From a virus, in the IMG/VR virus record IMGVR_UViG_3300035201_000103, positions 1-20,960 of that record: 20,960 nucleotides of DNA, one strand, 5' to 3'. The first letter of the stretch is position 1. Every line of letters starts with the position of its first letter. The notes beneath the pieces are model-generated. The model was given only the letters and a program-made list of their open reading frames with translations, did not search any database and was not told the origin of the DNA. Positions 2,186-10,262 of the stretch are shown piece after piece. The position numbers and the translations under genes were made by a program.

Positions 2186-2523
2186 TAGTAACTGGGATCT
2201 CCTGGTATGTTGTCATCATCAATAGCAGTTGACTCTCCAATCATTTCAATCCCTTCCTCTGGTTCAGCGTTGAGTTCGAATGATGGCATACCAACCTCGC
2301 TATCATCTCCCATTATATCACGTTTTACCATAAACAGTGCATCAATAGCACCTTCTAACCTGGATCTCTGACTGTAAGCATCAGATCTCTTTTGGAAGTC
2401 AATGGTAGTGACACCATAAGGGTTCAGTTTCTTATTACTGAACTCTTCATCCAACTCCTCAATCAGTTTACTCTGTTCTTCCTTCTGTAAGTGGAAGTTT
2501 TGTATTAGTTCATCGATGTTCAT
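2185..2523 (-). CDS. Hypothetical protein with N-terminal helical hairpin, 112 aa
   Basis: Residues 1-70 are highly charged and helical (EEQSKLIEELDEEFSNKK, then a Tyr/Arg-rich segment around 45-56), consistent with a coiled-coil hairpin. The last 35 residues are acidic and low in complexity, with DDDNIPGDPSY at the C-terminus. It overlaps the preceding gene by 4 nt (ATGA) and the next by 1 nt (TAATG). No enzyme motif is visible. A structural or adaptor role is possible but unsupported. Confidence 0.75.
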   Translation of the reverse strand: MNIDELIQNFHLQKEEQSKLIEELDEEFSNKKLNPYGVTTIDFQKRSDAYSQRSRLEGAIDALFMVKRDIMGDDSEVGMPSFELNAEPEEGIEMIGESTAIDDDNIPGDPSY

Positions 2524-3326
2524 CGTTTGGTTCCGTCTGAGTGATAGTTGATCGCTCGCATTGCTCTTGCAATCTTTCTAGTTACAGTGTCTTCAGTTGA
2601 ATACTCTGCTGCGAGTGAGTAATTGAAAGATTGTTCTAAGTCCCAGTCTTTTGGTTCAGCAGGTTCTTGAGTAAAATCATACCAATCTTTCTCAATGTGT
2701 TCACGTAACACAGGTATAAATTGTGCTAGTGGTGTTCCTGCTTTAATAAGTGTACCATCTGGTCCAGAGTCAAGCACTTTCCAGTACAATTGGACGTTGA
2801 CTTGCATTGCAAACCGTGGGTCATACATACCAGCAACTGCCTCGAATCTAGTTTCGTTGTTGTAATACACTGGGAGTTGTAAAAACACAATGTCATCACT
2901 AGCACGAACCCTCCAAGGTGTTTCAAGTTTTATAACGTGAGCAAGAGTATCTTGTGGAAATACTCCTGACTCTGCATCCTCAAGCAGTGGGACTGTCTGA
3001 TCTGGTGGATGATCTCCAATAAAATTGGAGTGTCTGGTAAAGTTGGTTACCTGTTCATATCTATAAGAGATACCGTCATTCTCTGTCCATATCCTGAAAT
3101 CCATAGGTGAGGTTACCACCCAACCCATACGTGTGATTTGTTTTAGACCTGGACAATTAGCAACGTTTTGTGTACCCATAAATGGACACCTTCTACCCTT
3201 CGCATCCTTATCCTTCCATTGTCTTTTAATGGTTGAAGCAGGAAGCAGTGGATAGTTCTCTGCTAGACCAGGTTCAAGTGAGAAGAATCTGATCCACGGT
3301 TTCTTCTTACGGAAGATATTCCACAT
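2520..3326 (-). CDS. DUF6065-like protein next to the halogenases, 268 aa
   Basis: The start is set at ATG 3326, because GGAG lies 6 nt upstream (3336-3333). The longer open frame to 3392 only overlaps the halogenase gene and lacks such a site. Visible conserved-looking blocks are FSLEPGLAENYPLLPA (15-30), CPFMGTQNVANCPG with C47 and C58, GWVVTSPMDF (68-77), GMYDPRFAMQVNVQLYW (166-182) and AGTPLAQFIPV (196-206). This pattern recalls the uncharacterised DUF6065 family, which I associate from memory with tryptophan halogenase and 2OG-oxygenase neighbourhoods; that assignment is tentative. The beta-rich composition suggests a soluble folded enzyme or chaperone-like partner. It overlaps the end of the first halogenase gene by 20 nt, so a joint function is likely. 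Confidence 0.8.
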   Translation of the reverse strand: MWNIFRKKKPWIRFFSLEPGLAENYPLLPASTIKRQWKDKDAKGRRCPFMGTQNVANCPGLKQITRMGWVVTSPMDFRIWTENDGISYRYEQVTNFTRHSNFIGDHPPDQTVPLLEDAESGVFPQDTLAHVIKLETPWRVRASDDIVFLQLPVYYNNETRFEAVAGMYDPRFAMQVNVQLYWKVLDSGPDGTLIKAGTPLAQFIPVLREHIEKDWYDFTQEPAEPKDWDLEQSFNYSLAAEYSTEDTVTRKIARAMRAINYHSDGTKR

Positions 3327-4983
3327 TATCTTCTCCATAGATGTGTTCAAGTAGGTAATCATAATGAGTAGGACAGTCATCCGACTCAACAAACTTCTTC
3401 ACATTAGCAATATATTCTTCTCTTGTCACCTTACTGACTCCTATTGCGTGCTCGTTCTCATCACCACCCATTAAGTATCTTGTACCTAACTGTAGTCCTT
3501 GACCTGCTGCAATATAATTCATACCGTGCATATTAGCATTCAATGGTTCAGCGTGATCTAATATAGATCCCATCCTCTCAAAGTTATCATTAACCTTGAT
3601 GTTACCATCAAACTCTTGTATCATATATTCATTACGTTGTGATGCCCACTTCCAATATGGATTATCAGTCCTCATTGACAGTGCATAGTGCATAGCAACA
3701 AACTTACCAAATCCAATAATCTCACGTCTAGCACAATAATTATACCACTGTCTCTCTATATTTGTGATGTATCCTCTTCTTCTATTGAGTATGTCAACCA
3801 GTCTAAGGATACTCTCGTGTGTTGTTAATAGTCCTGTTGATTCTAATGGTTCAACAAATCCATATGATAGACCAATAGCAAGACAATTAAGTTCCCACGC
3901 TTTATCTCTATAACCGTGCTTCATCTCAATAGTTTCAATCTCATACTCATCAGGTGCAATACCAAACTTCTGTTCAATCCAGATCTGAAACTCTTGCTCT
4001 GTCTCGTGTTGCATTGCAAATCGTGATGACCAAGCATAACCAACACCAATACGATTCCATAGTGGAATAGTCCACATCCAACCATTATCAGCACCAGTAC
4101 AGTCAGTCACATTGTGCATTGCTTCTTTACGTTGATCTATGTCAAGGTAAGGAATACGTGCGAAGTGTGCTCTATCATTTGCAAGTATATCTTTAAAATC
4201 ATTAAAGTTTACATTCATCAATCCCTCAATGAGTGCACCTTTAAATCCAGTACAGTCAATGAATAGATCACCCTGTACTCCTACAGTCTTATTATCTGCT
4301 GCTAATCTAACTGCTAAGTGTTTAATCTCTCTATTAGATGCAGCAGGTGATCCACCTTTCTTCACATCCTTGACCATACCACGTACTTCACCTATTACGT
4401 GTGTGAATCTATCCTTCTCTGCCCACGGATAACATATATTATCTCTTAGGAACTCCCCAAACTTCTCAGCATCCAAATGATATGCTACATCAGTTTCCAT
4501 ATTATAGTTATCCCAATCCATATATCCTTCTGGTGTCTCAGCACTACCCCACTGCTTATTATTTGCTACAAGTGTATCGTTCTCAGGATTATAGAACTGA
4601 CTGAATGACTTATTGTCTGGATTATATTCTTCTGGATGTCTCTTCTGTAAGTCAAACCAATCTTCAATACCATTAGCAGTGTTGTCTAACTTATATTTAC
4701 CAAATGGATACTGGAAGGTTGATCCTTTCTCTCTAAAATCTGTGAACTGAATACTATTCTTGTATGTGGCATTACAATACTCCATCCAGTCTGTATCTTG
4801 TAGACCTAGAGCATCAGTAAACTTATTAAAGTGTCCCAGTGTTGACTCACCTACACCAATTGGTTTATGTTTTGCACTCTCAACAAGCACAACATTAACC
4901 CAAGGACATAGTTTCAACAAGGCAGCACAGGTCATCCAACCAGATGATCCACCACCCACAATTACAATGTTATTGACTTGCAT
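3307..4983 (-). CDS. Tryptophan-halogenase-like flavoprotein A, 558 aa
   Basis: This is a FADH2-dependent halogenase of the PrnA/RebH family. The family uses FADH2, O2 and chloride or bromide to make HOX, which is passed to a catalytic lysine and then to an aromatic carbon, typically of tryptophan. The FAD-binding motif IVGGGSSGW lies at residues 8-16, and VGVGEST-like residues GVGEST at 43-48. The catalytic lysine is K75 in ATYKNSIQF. WMWTIP (302-307) is the family's WxWxIP signature. EPLESTG (378-384) carries the equivalents of PrnA E346 and the halide-pocket Thr-Gly. All key residues are present, so it should be active if reduced flavin is supplied; no flavin reductase gene is in the window. 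It follows halogenase B with a 3-nt gap. Confidence 0.92.
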   Translation of the reverse strand: MQVNNIVIVGGGSSGWMTCAALLKLCPWVNVVLVESAKHKPIGVGESTLGHFNKFTDALGLQDTDWMEYCNATYKNSIQFTDFREKGSTFQYPFGKYKLDNTANGIEDWFDLQKRHPEEYNPDNKSFSQFYNPENDTLVANNKQWGSAETPEGYMDWDNYNMETDVAYHLDAEKFGEFLRDNICYPWAEKDRFTHVIGEVRGMVKDVKKGGSPAASNREIKHLAVRLAADNKTVGVQGDLFIDCTGFKGALIEGLMNVNFNDFKDILANDRAHFARIPYLDIDQRKEAMHNVTDCTGADNGWMWTIPLWNRIGVGYAWSSRFAMQHETEQEFQIWIEQKFGIAPDEYEIETIEMKHGYRDKAWELNCLAIGLSYGFVEPLESTGLLTTHESILRLVDILNRRRGYITNIERQWYNYCARREIIGFGKFVAMHYALSMRTDNPYWKWASQRNEYMIQEFDGNIKVNDNFERMGSILDHAEPLNANMHGMNYIAAGQGLQLGTRYLMGGDENEHAIGVSKVTREEYIANVKKFVESDDCPTHYDYLLEHIYGEDNVEYLP

Positions 4984-4986
4984 AAT

Positions 4987-6504
4987 CTAATTGATACCGT
5001 CAGTATTATATAGGGTCTGGTTGTAGAAGTCAAGTGGGACAGGCATATTATTGGCAATCTGAATTCCCTGTTCAAGTCTCATACTAACCTCATTGTCTAC
5101 ATTCTTGAGCATCTCATCGTCATATAGTTTATCATAGTGTGCTTCCATATCCATTATCTCCTTCCTACCAATGATAGTATATCCTAGTCCTGCCAATACA
5201 AACTGCATACCAATAAACAAATCATTTAATGTTGTTGGTATGTCCCTACAATCAATTTGATTTAGTGTATGGAAGTAAACAGAAGTTGCTGCATCCCAAT
5301 ATGGTGTGTCATCCTTGAATGCTGCGGTGAAATGATGGACAACAAAATCTCTGAATGTCATAAACTTAACGTGACACGCTGCATTGAACCAGTCACGTTG
5401 TAGTCCTGACAATGTATCCACCTTTGGATCAGCAAATTGTATGAAATTAAATAGAAACTCGTGTACTGAGAACAAACCACCTGATTCTAATGGTTCAATG
5501 AAACCAGCAGACAACCCAATAGCTAGAGTATTGCCTACCCATATCTTTTCTCTCATACCTGTTGGCCAACGTATATATCTGAAATCACTATCAGGTGCAT
5601 CAGGACAACCTAGATGATCTTTAAATTCTTTGAGTGCAAATCTCTTGTCTTGGAACTTACTACTGAAATTATATCCTGTACCAATCCTATTCCAAGTTGG
5701 TACCTTCCAGACCCATCCACTTGATAGTGCTGTAACACTGGTATAACTTGTAAGTTCCCGTGCCTTATCAACATACTCCCGTTTAGTGCACCACGTACTG
5801 TCATTGAGTAACACGTCCCTCCAATCTTCCCAGGGTACACCCAGGCGATTCATCAATATTGCTCTGAATCCTGTGCAATCTATGAATAGATCAGCAGTTA
5901 TCTCTCTACCATCATCAAGAGTTAGTTTCTCTATATTGTCACCATTAGTGTCTATCCTATCTACTGTCTCTCTAATATAATTTAAACCACGTGGTAAGCA
6001 GAACTTATCCTTTAAGTACGTAGCAAACTTAGTAGCATCGATATGATAACCAACTAACTTGTCTATGTGTGGTGTATATAATTTTCCCTGTTCAGATACT
6101 GCTGCTGCATTAGAGTATACATTTTGGAATGTATTATTTGAAGGCTGACGATAATGCTTCCAAACATAGTAATCTAATGGTGGTAGACCTGTGTCATAGC
6201 TACCAAAAGGGTACTGCCACGGTTGGTCAGTACCCCAATTTTCAAATCTAATGCTGTTCTTATATGTTGCGTCACACGCTGGCATCCACTCTTTATCTTC
6301 GAGTTCAAGATACCTTACAAATGTATTAAAATGCTGTGTTGTAGATTCCCCTACCCCTATAGTTCCAACTAGAGGAGACTCTATCAACGTAATATTCTTA
6401 GAAGCCTTGGAAAGGGGACTGTCACCAAAATGTTTAAGTAACACTGATGCTGTCATCCACCCTGCACTGCCACCTCCGACAATACAGATGTTATTAAATT
6501 TCAT
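4987..6504 (-). CDS. Tryptophan-halogenase-like flavoprotein B, 505 aa
   Basis: This paralogue of the adjacent protein has the same architecture: FAD motif IVGGGSAGW (8-16), GVGEST (50-55), catalytic-type K82 in ATYKNSIRF, and WVWKVP (264-269), a mild variant of WxWxIP. The halide pocket differs. The sequence is EPLESGG (337-343), so the Glu is kept (E340) but the position of the halide-contacting Thr is Gly (G342). That could change halide choice or turn the enzyme into a plain flavin monooxygenase. It is about 50 residues shorter than protein A, and the two differ widely outside the motifs, so duplication is not recent. The gene starts 6 nt after the stop of the 174-aa late gene without a clear Shine-Dalgarno, suggesting co-transcription with tail genes. 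Confidence 0.92.
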   Translation of the reverse strand: MKFNNICIVGGGSAGWMTASVLLKHFGDSPLSKASKNITLIESPLVGTIGVGESTTQHFNTFVRYLELEDKEWMPACDATYKNSIRFENWGTDQPWQYPFGSYDTGLPPLDYYVWKHYRQPSNNTFQNVYSNAAAVSEQGKLYTPHIDKLVGYHIDATKFATYLKDKFCLPRGLNYIRETVDRIDTNGDNIEKLTLDDGREITADLFIDCTGFRAILMNRLGVPWEDWRDVLLNDSTWCTKREYVDKARELTSYTSVTALSSGWVWKVPTWNRIGTGYNFSSKFQDKRFALKEFKDHLGCPDAPDSDFRYIRWPTGMREKIWVGNTLAIGLSAGFIEPLESGGLFSVHEFLFNFIQFADPKVDTLSGLQRDWFNAACHVKFMTFRDFVVHHFTAAFKDDTPYWDAATSVYFHTLNQIDCRDIPTTLNDLFIGMQFVLAGLGYTIIGRKEIMDMEAHYDKLYDDEMLKNVDNEVSMRLEQGIQIANNMPVPLDFYNQTLYNTDGIN

Positions 6505-6510
6505 AATGAG

Positions 6511-7035
6511 TTAAGTAGGTGGTTCTACGTATGCTCCACCCCAGTTTGAATAACGTTCCCAACAGGGACTGTCTTGTGCACTTATCTTAGCAGGTCTTGT
6601 GGTTGATGGCTCAACAACGTCAGACATATACTCTGCGATTTCATCTTCTGTCATCGCTGGATCCATTGGTTCTTCTACATCAGACGGTCTTTGAGTATTC
6701 TCTTTGACTGTCTTAACGTGCTGGAACCAACTAGCGTCAGAAGCGTTCAAAGCTTTACCCGCAGCTAAGTCTTTGTACAGCATATCTAATTGCTGACCAA
6801 CTTCACCGTATGCTACACGTCTTGTCGTAGCAGGATCAGCATATGTTTCAGTTCTCTTGACCCAGATCATATCAGCAGCACTTGGTGACCATTCTAGTGT
6901 CCAAGAGTTAGTAATATCATCAGGGGCATTCACCCACATTTGAGAGCAACCACGTCCTAAGAACAATGTGTACTCTTCACCAGGATCCACTACGTCTGCT
7001 ACGTAGCCATTAAAGTCCATTAATGCTTTCTTCAT
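6511..7035 (-). CDS. Putative tail-fibre assembly or virion-associated protein, 174 aa
   Basis: The central region reads RRVAYGEVGQQLDMLYKDL (73-91) followed by WFQHVKTVKENTQRP (103-117). This RR.xYG..GQQLDMLYKD...VK...P pattern is common in small proteins after phage tail-fibre genes, including tail assembly chaperone-like families. The C-terminus is acidic, then ends in WGGAYVEPPT. It has a good ribosome site (GGGAG, 5-nt spacer) and follows the glycine-rich adhesin gene by 9 nt, so it belongs to the late fibre operon. An assembly role for the adjacent fibre is an inference from position and motif; it could also be a minor virion protein. Confidence 0.6.
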   Translation of the reverse strand: MKKALMDFNGYVADVVDPGEEYTLFLGRGCSQMWVNAPDDITNSWTLEWSPSAADMIWVKRTETYADPATTRRVAYGEVGQQLDMLYKDLAAGKALNASDASWFQHVKTVKENTQRPSDVEEPMDPAMTEDEIAEYMSDVVEPSTTRPAKISAQDSPCWERYSNWGGAYVEPPT

Positions 7036-7044
7036 TGGATCTCC

Positions 7045-7845
7045 CTACTTGTAGTTAATAACAGTAATGACACCGTACTTACCGTTTGAACCACGGAAAG
7101 AACCAAAGTGTCCACCAGATCCACCACTACCATAAGCAGAGTGATCTTGGTGATTATGTGAGAAGTTACCACCATTTGGCCAACCAGCAGCAACTGATCC
7201 TCCAAAGTGAGATGGTCCTCCAGTTCCACCACCGTGAGCAGCGTGGGACTGTCCACCTCCACCCCAGATGTTAATGTCTCCACCAGAACCATTACGTCCT
7301 AGTCCACCTGAGTGGGAGTTGTTACGTGCAGCACCGTGTCCACCACCAGCAGATAGATATGGTCCAAAGGATGAGGATCCTCCGTCTCCACCACGGTTAA
7401 AGTACCAAGTACCTCCACCGCCTCCACCAACTGAAATACCAACTGAAGAAATGTTTTCGACGCTCATTACACGCTCAGAATATCCACCAGCACCACCAGA
7501 CTCTCCGTGTCCAGCACCACCTCCTCCACCACCATTGCAGCGGACGTGAATATACTTCACACCTGATGGTCTGTTCCAGGTTCCACCCCCAGTCCAGACG
7601 TTCATATTGTAAATGTTTTCGGAACTTACAGATGCCCAAGACATCGAAGAACCATTGTTAGTTAGAAACTTTCCAGACTGTCCTGAGATACTAGGTACTA
7701 TCTGACCAGACGAACCTGACATAGTTCCGTTCACGGTCAAATTACTGCACGTTAATGTTCCGTTCGCAGTAATATTACCAGACGCTAGGGTAAATCCACC
7801 GATGCCTGACAGGTCTCTAATAGATGCAACTTTAAGTGTACTCAT
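7045..7845 (-). CDS. Glycine-rich tail-fibre adhesin 1, 266 aa
   Basis: The N-terminal part (1-75) looks like a fibre-attachment segment: MSTLKVASIRDLSGIGGF, then beta-strand repeats such as ITANGTLTCSNLTVNGTM. From about residue 105 the protein is dominated by GGGG tracts broken by aromatic, His, Asn and Ser residues, ending KYGVITVINYK. Such glycine-rich domains form polyglycine-II sandwiches in T-even-type tail-tip adhesins and bind host surface receptors. It has only two cysteines, unlike its neighbour at 8437-9408. A TATAAATA late box lies 26 nt before the ATG. Exact placement in the virion (tip adhesin or baseplate fibre) cannot be told from sequence. Confidence 0.8.
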   Translation of the reverse strand: MSTLKVASIRDLSGIGGFTLASGNITANGTLTCSNLTVNGTMSGSSGQIVPSISGQSGKFLTNNGSSMSWASVSSENIYNMNVWTGGGTWNRPSGVKYIHVRCNGGGGGGAGHGESGGAGGYSERVMSVENISSVGISVGGGGGGTWYFNRGGDGGSSSFGPYLSAGGGHGAARNNSHSGGLGRNGSGGDINIWGGGGQSHAAHGGGTGGPSHFGGSVAAGWPNGGNFSHNHQDHSAYGSGGSGGHFGSFRGSNGKYGVITVINYK

Positions 7846-7882: not shown

Positions 7883-8437
7883 TTATGGAGTTGGTCTAAC
7901 CTCATCTGTTTCCAGATATGGTTGATCCCTATTCCATTGATCATCATCAGGGTAATAACCTGGATGATAATGTACTTTATTGGCAGGATAATCCCTTCCA
8001 GTGGACTCATCCTCCCATTTCTCTACCTTGAAGGTCTCCTTATATTTCAAAGTGATACCATCTTCTTTAACCCAAGCCTGTACTATGTAATCAGTATCGG
8101 GTTCAAGTCTAGGGAAACTTATATTTTCAAACCAAGGACAGTCTGTACAGATGATACTATCGTACTTCATCTCATACAGTGGTGTATCTGTTCCTTTGCT
8201 GATACACACGTACATCTCTAGGTTATTAAATTCTAATGCGTACACACCATTCTTTCTAACACTCATCTTAACATTAGGATCGTAAGATTTTAGTGTTTGA
8301 AATCCAGATGCTTCCACAGTATTAAGAGCAACATCAAATACTATTGTTGCTTCATTATATTCTAATGCCTGTACCTCATTGTCAGCAGGTTTGGCAGTAT
8401 GAATATCGGTTTGAGTTGGGTTACTAGTTGGTTCCAT
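7883..8437 (-). CDS. Small virion-associated protein with Ig/FN3-like region, 184 aa
   Basis: Residues 28-140 are rich in predicted beta strands and include FPRLEPDTDYIVQAWV (108-123), which resembles the F-strand region of fibronectin-III or Ig-like domains. Three cysteines lie near the middle (C78, C97, C100). The tail is acidic and aromatic (HYHPGYYPDDDQW, 157-169). The gene lies between two glycine-rich adhesins and starts in a TAATG junction with GAGG just upstream. A decorating or fibre-linking role is inferred from context and fold-like features; no family is firmly recognised. Confidence 0.65.
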   Translation of the reverse strand: MEPTSNPTQTDIHTAKPADNEVQALEYNEATIVFDVALNTVEASGFQTLKSYDPNVKMSVRKNGVYALEFNNLEMYVCISKGTDTPLYEMKYDSIICTDCPWFENISFPRLEPDTDYIVQAWVKEDGITLKYKETFKVEKWEDESTGRDYPANKVHYHPGYYPDDDQWNRDQPYLETDEVRPTP

Positions 8438-9408
8438 TAAGCCTCATAGCATACTGTTATGTTACCAGTTCCACCATTATATTGTCCAGCCCCGTTACGA
8501 GCCCAATGACCCCAGTTTCCACCGTTGCCATAAGATCCACTCCAAGTCCCTGTGTCATCAGCATAGTTAGAACTTGACCAATTGTTTCCTCCACCTCCAC
8601 CTGCTGCTCCATTACAGTCACAGCCTGGGTTTCCTCCACAATTTCCAGCGTTCCAACCGCCTCCACCACCGCCTCCTCCAGAGGCATCATTACCTGGTCT
8701 TCCACATTCATCACCATTAGTATCTCCATTACCACCGTGTGCTCCACCCTGTGAACCACACTGTCCGTTCTCTCCTCTCTGGTGTCCTGCTCCTCCTCGA
8801 CCAGCACCACTACATCCTTCACGACCACCGCCCCCGCCACCACCTGCTGCTACCAACAGGATATTGCCCTGAGACAAGTTAACACCCCAAGGTGAGAAGA
8901 ACATACTTGCTGCTCCACCACCTCCACCTCCAGCAGAGCATCCTCTACAAGAAGCGTGAGTACCACGTCCACCTGATCCATAACCAGATCCATTATTACC
9001 ATTACCTCCACCACCCCAACATCCGAAGCAACCTCCTCCGTTAGAGCCACCACCTCCGACATATGCTCGGAAGCGTCTGGACTGAACCCATCCTTGTTCT
9101 AAGATGAGTCGTGCATAGGCAGCACCACCTGATCCACCGTGTGCACCACCTTGACCGCCATTACCACCAGCTGCACCCCAAGCCCAAACCCAAATATAGT
9201 TACCAGTACCTGAGTTAATATACAGGCTATTGTCCCCACTTCCTTGGAAGCGATGACATCGAAGTTGTTTTCCAAATTGTGATGTTGTAAATACTGAACC
9301 GTTATTATCAGCAGTAACTGCTTCGATTCCTCCAGCACCACCACCTCTTGATCCTAGCGAGTGTGAAAGACCGTTAAGTATACCTGAATAACCAATTTGT
9401 GTTCCCAT
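8437..9408 (-). CDS. Cysteine- and glycine-rich tail-fibre adhesin 2, 323 aa
   Basis: The start is the ATG at 9408, which forms a TAATG junction with the preceding gene. The open frame upstream to 9498 merely overlaps that gene. Residues 1-70 hold a non-glycine segment, then IWVWAWGAAGGNGG begins a glycine-rich domain of about 245 residues with runs of up to eight Gly. Twelve cysteines are present (51, 127, 130, 154, 157, 199, 217, 235, 257, 263, 265, 320), several in CxxC spacing (CFGC, CRGC) plus CDC. The glycine-rich domain fits polyglycine-II adhesins of phage tail tips. The cysteines are unusual for a phage fibre and could bind metal or form disulfides outside the cell. The receptor is unknown. 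Confidence 0.8.
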   Translation of the reverse strand: MGTQIGYSGILNGLSHSLGSRGGGAGGIEAVTADNNGSVFTTSQFGKQLRCHRFQGSGDNSLYINSGTGNYIWVWAWGAAGGNGGQGGAHGGSGGAAYARLILEQGWVQSRRFRAYVGGGGSNGGGCFGCWGGGGNGNNGSGYGSGGRGTHASCRGCSAGGGGGGAASMFFSPWGVNLSQGNILLVAAGGGGGGGREGCSGAGRGGAGHQRGENGQCGSQGGAHGGNGDTNGDECGRPGNDASGGGGGGGGWNAGNCGGNPGCDCNGAAGGGGGNNWSSSNYADDTGTWSGSYGNGGNWGHWARNGAGQYNGGTGNITVCYEA

Positions 9409-10262
9409 TATGCGTAATTCGATCCTGAGCCAAAGACAGTGAATGCGTGTTGAGCAGTATTTGGTGTATGTACCATAGCAAATGATACTACGCACCATTT
9501 CTCATCGTGTGATGGAGCTGATCCACCTATCCACTGGATGTTAGTACTCTGTCCATTAATATTAATGGATGATGGAATACCAGACCCACCTACTTCATAT
9601 ATAGCACACGTAATACCATATCCGTGAGCTCCATCAGTAGGAACATTGTTTAAAGATAATGTCCAGTTACCTCCACCGTTCTTGTTTATCCAGATAGAGT
9701 TACCATTATTATAGTCGTGAGTTATACTTCCACTAGTTGTATAGAAGTAGACACGCTCTGAAGTTTCTTCAAAGTGAAATCTACCAGTTGAAGTAATATG
9801 TTGTGACTCAATATCAACGAAGTGAGCATAGGACAGATCGTCGTCTCCAAGTAATGTCCACGTTGCTCCGTTTTCAATCGTGACCGTAAATCCTGAGTCA
9901 ATCTGTACAGGACCAGCAGTAAATCCGTTTGTAAATTCTACACCACCGTTCGCTATAGGACCAATGGTTATGTTTTCTGTTATATTTGTACCGTTCGTTC
10001 TAATTATACTTCCTTCACCAAGAGCAGGACCACCTCCACCAACGTCTGTCCAACCTGGGTTACCCTGGTTAGCATCCTGTTTGTAGATCTGTGCCATATC
10101 TTCGGTGCTGTTATACACCAAAGTACCAAACGCAGGAGTTCCCAACGCAGTGACTTGAGCCTGGTTGAGATACGGTAAGTTAAGTTGTTCAGTAATACTC
10201 CACGCTTCTACAAGACCTCTTGTAGTTGCCTGAATATTATTACCATTAATCTTTGTAGTCAT
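9408..10262 (-). CDS. Tail-fibre/virion structural protein, 284 aa
   Basis: The N-terminus (1-75) contains LNLPYLNQAQVTALGTPAFG followed by GTLVYNSTEDMAQIYK, a pattern of phage fibre proteins with a small beta domain. GGGGPALGEGSIIRTN then links to a beta-strand repeat region (FTNGFTAGPVQIDSGFTVTI, 109-128) and an Ig-like or jelly-roll-like C-terminal half with AFTVFGSGSNYA at the end. It has a strong ribosome site, GAAGGAGGG at 10280-10272, 9 nt before the ATG, and a late-like box 28 nt upstream. It is the first gene of the adhesin cluster that ends at 6511. Its place in the fibre is inferred. Confidence 0.75.
   Translation of the reverse strand: MTTKINGNNIQATTRGLVEAWSITEQLNLPYLNQAQVTALGTPAFGTLVYNSTEDMAQIYKQDANQGNPGWTDVGGGGPALGEGSIIRTNGTNITENITIGPIANGGVEFTNGFTAGPVQIDSGFTVTIENGATWTLLGDDDLSYAHFVDIESQHITSTGRFHFEETSERVYFYTTSGSITHDYNNGNSIWINKNGGGNWTLSLNNVPTDGAHGYGITCAIYEVGGSGIPSSININGQSTNIQWIGGSAPSHDEKWCVVSFAMVHTPNTAQHAFTVFGSGSNYA

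Follow-up and report, generated by a model that had tools for sequence, protein, structure and literature searches.

Two halogenase genes, A and B, lie side by side on the minus strand of a 20,960-nt virus record (IMGVR_UViG_3300035201_000103, positions 1-20,960; hereafter the window), and they raise the question of why a virus should carry two such enzymes that differ at the loop where halide is bound. An earlier note, made from the letters of this DNA, had pointed out that the downstream protein A reads EPLESTG at this loop and the upstream protein B reads EPLESGG, and had taken the loss of the Thr to suggest a different halide preference, a non-halogenating flavin monooxygenase, or a pair acting in sequence or as a heteromer. 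Our analysis favors another answer, to which we give a probability of roughly 0.6: A and B would both be active halogenases of the VirX1-like family, with different pockets, encoded together with the next gene downstream, C, in one operon-like cassette, B-A-C. The two genes proved to be exactly where the earlier note had placed them, in coordinates, strand, and reading frame, with 3 nt between the stop codon of B and the ATG of A (Table 1).

Both proteins are full-length flavin-dependent halogenases, matching PF04820 with 286.4 bits (A) and 322.9 bits (B) against a cut-off of 21 bits. With PrnA numbering anchored on a near-identical protein, the lysines that the note had called catalytic-type (K75 of A and K82 of B) both align with PrnA K79, E381 of A and E340 of B align with E346, and S382 and S341 align with S347; the changed residue, T383 in A and G342 in B, falls on PrnA T348. 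The flavin motif GGGSxGW is present in both, as is the WxWx[IV]P signature (WMWTIP in A; WVWKVP in B, with V in place of the I of WxWxIP), so that the note's description of the motifs stands. The GxGxxG flavin motif and the Fx.Px.Sx.G tunnel motif are also found in the two proteins; B fits the latter because it leaves the T348-equivalent residue free (PMC8407142). PrnA, RebH, and other free-tryptophan halogenases share with A and B the fold, the flavin motif, the Lys, the Glu, the Ser, and the WxW motif.

These residues are conserved well beyond the window. We counted them in viral rows at 85% nonredundancy, with phmmer scores above 330 bits (A) or 280 bits (B) and a length of at least 450 aa, plus the two window proteins and leaving out P-RSM6 and distant viral rows; the two viral-contig scans and the genome scan each contributed their best 80 rows, so that proteins close to A and B weigh more in the counts. 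The Lys, the Glu, and W272 are kept in 68 of 68 A rows and 60 of 60 B rows, both Trp of WxWxxP in all 60 B rows, and the motif Ser in 58 of the 60. At the T348 position, every A row has Thr (68/68), and the B rows have Asn (53), Gly (5), Ser (1), or Thr (1); the two B-clade rows without the motif Ser read EGNG.

The predicted model of B (mean predicted local distance difference test score, pLDDT, 90.4) has the halogenase fold over its full length, with Z scores of 47.0 to SttH (5hy5), 46.9 to PrnA, and 43.6 to VirX1 (483 residues at 1.9 Å). The variant-A halogenase fold of BrvH and Xcc4156 (Z 44.2 and 45.0 to the B model) is found in B by model and in A by sequence only; an open pocket has been reported for these two enzymes (PMC7336383, PMC5945002). 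Ratios of nonsynonymous to synonymous substitution (dN/dS; NG86 method, dS >0.18) lay between 0.15 and 0.20 in 11 of 15 comparisons for B and in 11 of 15 for A, indicative of purifying selection that is equally strong on the two genes. C is more constrained (0.05-0.10 in 13 of 15), and close comparisons outside this dS range gave values from 0.13 to 0.40, with B reaching 0.38. As A and B are full-length family members under purifying selection, a chance origin is not an issue.

The residues Y443, Y444, E450, F454, and W455, which we take to be those that bind tryptophan in PrnA, are absent or variable in the 68 A and 60 B rows, and PrnA H101 is replaced by Tyr in A and B. Free tryptophan is therefore an unlikely substrate, and we disfavor chlorination of free tryptophan of the pyrrolnitrin type for both proteins. 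Such a reaction had been suggested for cyanophage PrnA (PMC9964418, PMC2984593), and the Trp4 region has been tied to tryptophan use (PMC8269204).

Among solved structures, VirX1 was the best sequence match for both proteins (441.8 bits for A and 294.3 bits for B), and the two relate to it differently. A is 42% identical to VirX1 and shares its ESTG; B, only 31% identical to A, lies in a sister ESGG/ESNG subfamily to which no solved structure is closer than VirX1. To place them, we collected 326 distinct open reading frames (ORFs) of at least 380 aa matching A or B (192 viral and 134 bacterial). A quick tree of 156 rows divided the viral family into two main clades, and a 68-row tree built without the motif columns recovered an ESTG (A) clade (support 100/97), a B clade (98/96), and, inside the Asn rows of the latter, a Gly group (100/99). 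The motif labels changed six times on this tree, compared to a mean of 30.1 after shuffling (five labels, with bacterial records as one). A, present as its identical copy L011, sits in the ESTG clade, where all 28 rows have Thr; VirX1 (L003) was merged with L010 at 60% identity in the 68-row tree and shares the clade of A in the 156-row tree. B, for which L017 stands in, lies outside, in the sister clade (25 Asn, 3 Gly, 1 Thr, 1 other, and one bacterial-record row), and two ESTG rows (L181 and L183) branch at the base of the B side (92/89). By these trees, A is of the VirX1 type and B belongs to an old sister subfamily that usually has Asn at the PrnA T348 position.

The simplest history of this position within the family would be one change from Thr to Asn, one from Asn to Gly, and one return to Thr. 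The return concerns L078, a B-clade halogenase that reads ESTG, likely by reversion from Asn. A distant viral row outside the main family, L072_352, also reads ESNG, so Asn arose separately there. The bacterial relatives sampled nearly all have Thr at this position: at 85% nonredundancy, 118 of 129 rows have Thr, 1 has Asn, 1 has Gln, and 9 do not match the motif. They depart from ESTG elsewhere in 100 of the 129 rows (ESTS 67, EATA 23, ESTA 8, ESTN 1, and EATS 1). The only ESNG halogenase that we found in a bacterial genome record (L184:4001-5578, a Deltaproteobacteria metagenome-assembled genome) is nested in the viral B clade and might be a phage sequence that was binned with a bacterium. 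A third viral group is formed by distant halogenase-like genes in tandem rows (L072, L073, L075, L083, L099, L037, and L103), with motifs such as GSPG, GSGG, EASS, ESSA, and EATS. Halogenase-like genes were also seen in records without a cyanophage name, namely MT837902.1 and MT835646.1 from human fecal samples and KC465899.1, the Pelagibacter phage HTVC008M.

What the change from Thr to Gly means depends on how halide is held. The earlier note had described this Thr as contacting halide, which is right as to the place, since the T348 position lies at the halide loop, but not as to the contact, which in known enzymes is made by the backbone NH and not by the Thr side chain. In AbeH the halide is held by the backbone NH of Thr357 and Gly358 (PMC11840605) and in RebH by that of T359 and G360 (PMC5945002); a general statement likewise has two backbone NH groups binding the halide, the relevance of the site to halogenation being questioned in the same source (PMC7336383). 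In the B model, a helix starts at residue 342. Thr, Asn, and Gly all suit helix starts. Because Gly, like Thr or Asn, offers a backbone NH and suits this place, halide binding is probably kept in B. With backbone binding, a motif position that is free, and catalytic residues that are kept, the note's inference that loss of the Thr by itself points to another halide or to lost halogenation is weak and finds no support here.

A change of halide could still be what the residue brings about, with Asn or Gly resetting the preference so that B would use bromide or iodide where A uses another halide. The T348 column ranks first of 461 comparable columns in separating the two subfamilies (0.98), it lies at the halide loop, and halide choice does vary in the family, VirX1 preferring iodide over bromide over chloride (PMC8407142). 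The preference does not follow this residue, however: BrvH keeps the Thr and prefers bromide (PMC5945002), and VirX1, which reads ESTG, prefers iodide. Halogenation activity is moreover described as less likely to be set by the halide motif alone (PMC8269204), and the contact is through the backbone. We therefore consider a switch of halide an unlikely explanation of the pair. BrvH and Xcc4156, as described, retain the Thr but have Ser or Asn in place of the Gly that follows it, whereas in B it is the Thr that is replaced and the Gly that stays. No statement on the residue at the T348 position was found for PltM (PMC6424973).

A more radical possibility is that B has lost halogenation and serves the same pathway as a flavin-dependent monooxygenase or oxidase. 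The altered halide loop, and the two EGNG rows that lose the motif Ser as well, would fit such a loss. The WxWxxP motif, held to block monooxygenation (PMC8407142), is nevertheless intact in B, with both Trp invariant in its clade; the Lys and the Glu are likewise kept in 60 of 60 rows, and purifying selection is as strong as in A. A non-halogenating B is, in our view, distinctly improbable. Two active halogenases acting on different substrates or sites remain the favored explanation, as B keeps its catalytic residues and a full-length fold and differs from A at several positions near the loop.

The arrangement seen in the window recurs. Distinct B-A pairs numbered 25, falling into 17 groups at 85% identity, with the window pair counted as its identical copy L011; this is an old pairing that recurs among viruses of this kind. 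A pair was defined by a B-scoring gene upstream and an A-scoring gene downstream, so that order and type are partly given by construction. The upstream copy has Asn in 16 pairs and Gly in 9, and the downstream copy has Thr in all 25 (24 ESTG and 1 EATG). The note's view of the two genes as a pair is supported, and of 14 other adjacent viral pairs, 5 were A-A and 9 B-B by score, with A preceding B in none. Within the B1 subclade, 17 of 21 rows lie next to an A gene, and 1 is undecidable. Distances across the pairs are strongly correlated (Mantel r 0.905 for B-A, 0.973 for A-C, and 0.900 for B-C), which indicates common inheritance only.

The recurring order, the tight spacing, the B-A correlation, and the listing of VirX1 as a trimer (PMC8407142) could also mean that B serves mainly as a partner subunit, shaping or regulating A within a mixed oligomer. 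Against this, every catalytic residue tested is kept in B, A is often found without B (of 98 distinct genes, 60 have room upstream but no halogenase there), and the B-A correlation reflects no more than common inheritance, A and C being correlated even more closely; we regard a purely supporting role for B as improbable. That the pair is simply a redundant gene copy with no special role is scarcely probable and was already disfavored: tandem halogenases are common, as phage A-A pairs and bacterial rows attest, but A and B share little identity and separated long ago, and purifying selection acts on B. Among these other tandems are four viral pairs of two A-type ESTG halogenases (L117, L116, L123, and L134), which represent separate doublings, and an A-type pair in P-RSM6 (L006, 8001-9587 and 9577-11157) whose upstream copy reads EATG, losing the motif Ser and not the Thr, and whose downstream copy reads ESTG. 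Each of eight bacterial genomes searched had 4 to 32 tryptophan-halogenase matches, some of them fragments and many in adjacent rows; one of these multi-halogenase genomes is G027, the genome of L208 (Asticcacaulis sp. AC460).

The third gene of the cassette, C, starts within the 3′ end of A (position 3326; 20-nt overlap). In all 25 distinct B-A pairs, the gene directly after A is C, and this constancy of the order B-A-C in the sampled pairs is new here. Around A genes at large, the association is looser: of 98 distinct A genes, 61 have C directly downstream, 5 have it within 2 kb, 31 do not have it close by, and 1 has less than 400 nt of room. Relatives of C also come directly after four B-type ORFs. 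The annotated phages yielded C in 14 records (8 named phages), each time beside a halogenase, while 65-67 records carry a halogenase, and no member of the C family turned up near the 130 bacterial halogenase ORFs that had room for it. This patchiness at A genes and in halogenase-bearing phages, together with the bacterial result, led us to disfavor C as a general halogenase partner. A C relative in an Alteromonas genome (L274) had no halogenase seen within 3.4 kb. A second, distant C relative lies further downstream at L013:12457-13143, about 2.5 kb past the end of the first C, and one is similarly placed in L011, L016, L018, L026, and L112-L115.

The fold of C is predicted to be dUTPase-like. 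Its AlphaFold2 model (pLDDT 89.9) retrieved dUTPases with Foldseek (best E 1.3e-4; template modeling score 0.33 by query length and 0.66 by target length), and dUTPases made up 50 of the 50 rows shown in a structural comparison (Z 8.9-9.8, not far above the typical chance level of 7 to 8; root-mean-square deviation 2.6-7.2 Å), the best match having a Z of 9.8 over 128 residues at 4.1 Å. When C was compared by profile with solved structures, the matches, all of them dUTPases, were weak (7 rows, best E 0.044). By sequence, C stays below the Pfam dUTPase level, with no Pfam match and none to PF00692 up to E 0.5, and at 268 aa it is longer than the matched chains (113-163 aa). Among 52 C relatives, 4 touched DUF6065 (best E 1.6e-4) and 1 touched dUTPase (E 0.23). 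The Pfam family DUF6065, related to C, scored above its cut-off in 8 of 38 halogenase-bearing genomes (40 loci chosen from the best 80 of the genome scan, minus 2), and none of these eight genes shared a contig with a halogenase match, the assemblies being fragmentary.

The same order can be recognized around a characterized enzyme. VirX1 (PDB 6qgm) is the product of CPUG_00131 of phage Syn10 (L003:9514-11106), identical from residue 2 on, and directly upstream of its gene lies a B-type ESNG gene, CPUG_00132, whose product is 41% identical to B; VirX1 thus comes from the downstream gene of a tandem pair, the one with ESTG, and A corresponds to it both in position and in sequence. In Syn10, P-TIM40, and S-RIM44, the genes are ordered as in the window, ESNG and then ESTG with C directly after; Syn9 has two halogenase places and C in the same order, and in S-CREM1 only the A type was found. 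The pairs of Syn10, P-TIM40, and S-RIM44 differ from the window pair in that the upstream copy has Asn and not Gly, and the cyanophage proteins are 38-43% identical to those of the window. That cyanophages carry halogenases, that there can be two per genome, and the chemistry of VirX1 were already known; a cyanomyovirus genome with two prnA genes already figures in tables of 2010 (PMC3037559, PMC2984593). We found no paper in the open literature on the paired arrangement, the Asn/Gly subfamily, or gene C.

The virus itself is marine and probably a cyanophage, with a cyanomyovirus-like tail-fiber region. Its nearest DNA relatives among annotated phages are tail-fiber genes of the Prochlorococcus phages P-RSM6 and P-TIM40, and a PF00124 photosystem reaction-center gene is present on two of four longer contigs of its relatives, both of which fit this reading. 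Along the minus strand, tail-fiber and glycine-rich proteins come first; next are a 174-aa protein and then B, A, and C, after which follow two small ORFs, a heme oxygenase, and a pair of 2-oxoglutarate (2OG)-Fe(II) oxygenases. Genes for 2OG-Fe(II) oxygenases are also found downstream of the Syn10, P-TIM40, S-RIM44, and P-RSM6 pairs (by Pfam for Syn10 and by annotation for the rest). For the last gene of the row, the label given by PHROG family 274 conflicts with the Pfam match, and the phage annotation may be a misnomer. The glycine-rich tail-region proteins just upstream of the cassette (window 7045-7845 and 8437-9498) are conceivable substrates of neighboring modifying enzymes.

Table 1. 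Positions of the halogenase cassette and its neighbors in the window.
Feature	Position	Strand	Remarks
2OG-Fe(II) oxygenase, PF13640	23..556	-	PHROG label 'DNA endonuclease V'; context
2OG-Fe(II) oxygenase, PF13759	543..1160	-	Context
Heme oxygenase, PF01126	1383..1964	-	Same gene row; context
C, phrog_7084	2520..3326	-	268 aa; no Pfam match; predicted dUTPase-like fold
A, flavin-dependent halogenase	3307..4983	-	558 aa; VirX1 type; EPLESTG
B, flavin-dependent halogenase	4987..6504	-	505 aa; halide-loop motif EPLESGG; sister subfamily of VirX1
Codon GGT, Gly342 of B (changed halide-loop position)	5479..5481	-	Coordinate counted by hand from residue number
174-aa protein, phrog_1787	6511..7035	-	Function not assigned; directly upstream of B; context

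Taken together, we picture A and B as two-component FADH2-dependent halogenases that arose from an old split and have been kept as an operon-like cassette in the tail-fiber region of cyanomyoviruses. In each enzyme, reduced flavin, presumably supplied by a host enzyme, would react with O2 to give a flavin hydroperoxide. Two backbone NH groups, where the helix after EPLES begins, would hold the halide that is then oxidized to hypohalous acid; this would move along the tunnel as far as the conserved lysine, K75 in A or K82 in B, and be transferred to an electron-rich substrate lying in an open pocket. Of the two residues that offer the halide their NH, the first would have changed in B from Thr to Asn at the base of the subfamily and from Asn to Gly in the group of the window. 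A and B would more likely differ in their substrate, and the choice of halide may be tuned as well, so that the two enzymes, presumably made from a shared transcript, may take on different steps or different substrates of one process.

Several observations weigh against this picture. No characterized enzyme of the B subfamily was found in the open literature, so that catalysis by B is an inference, although a tested member may be reported in the VirX1 paper (Gkotsi et al. 2019) or in a family-wide activity survey (Fisher et al. 2019). The halide loop is a less confident part of the B model (block means 77 and 79 for residues 331-350), and the model contains neither FAD nor halide. The lead of the T348 column is narrow, as the columns of PrnA 339, 385, and 356 reach 0.97 and positions 321, 327, 353, and 357 also differ between A and B; more than one residue has thus changed, since other columns separate the two almost as well. 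B can exist alone, 3 of the 21 B1-subclade rows lacking an A gene though there was more than 3 kb of room. Finally, flavin reductases of PF01613 or PF03358, the only two families searched, were found on none of four related contigs (99-172 kb), which may be incomplete, and hosts possess such enzymes themselves.

The cassette may have a closer unity than two enzymes of one process. B, A, and C could form one viral halogenation machine in which two non-equivalent halogenases, their halide loops having diverged a single time within this viral family, act on one substrate that the dUTPase-like C brings or recognizes, an idea that we put forward tentatively and consider rather improbable. Its substrate might, as the boldest possibility, be a nucleotide or nucleic-acid component and, as the second, the tail-fiber protein made next door. 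VirX1 has been described as the first characterized viral halogenase, with no natural substrate named for it in the literature covered (PMC8407142); if such a machine exists, it would explain what marine cyanophages naturally use their halogenases for.

For the family, these results show VirX1 to be one half of a recurring arrangement of two halogenases; the other half forms a subfamily of its own, which one residue of the halide loop, along with other positions, sets apart. B, A, and C, from Syn10 or from this virus, offer a concrete set for coexpression in the search for the natural substrate, and the natural series of Thr, Asn, and Gly at the halide loop offers a means of testing what sets the choice of halide.

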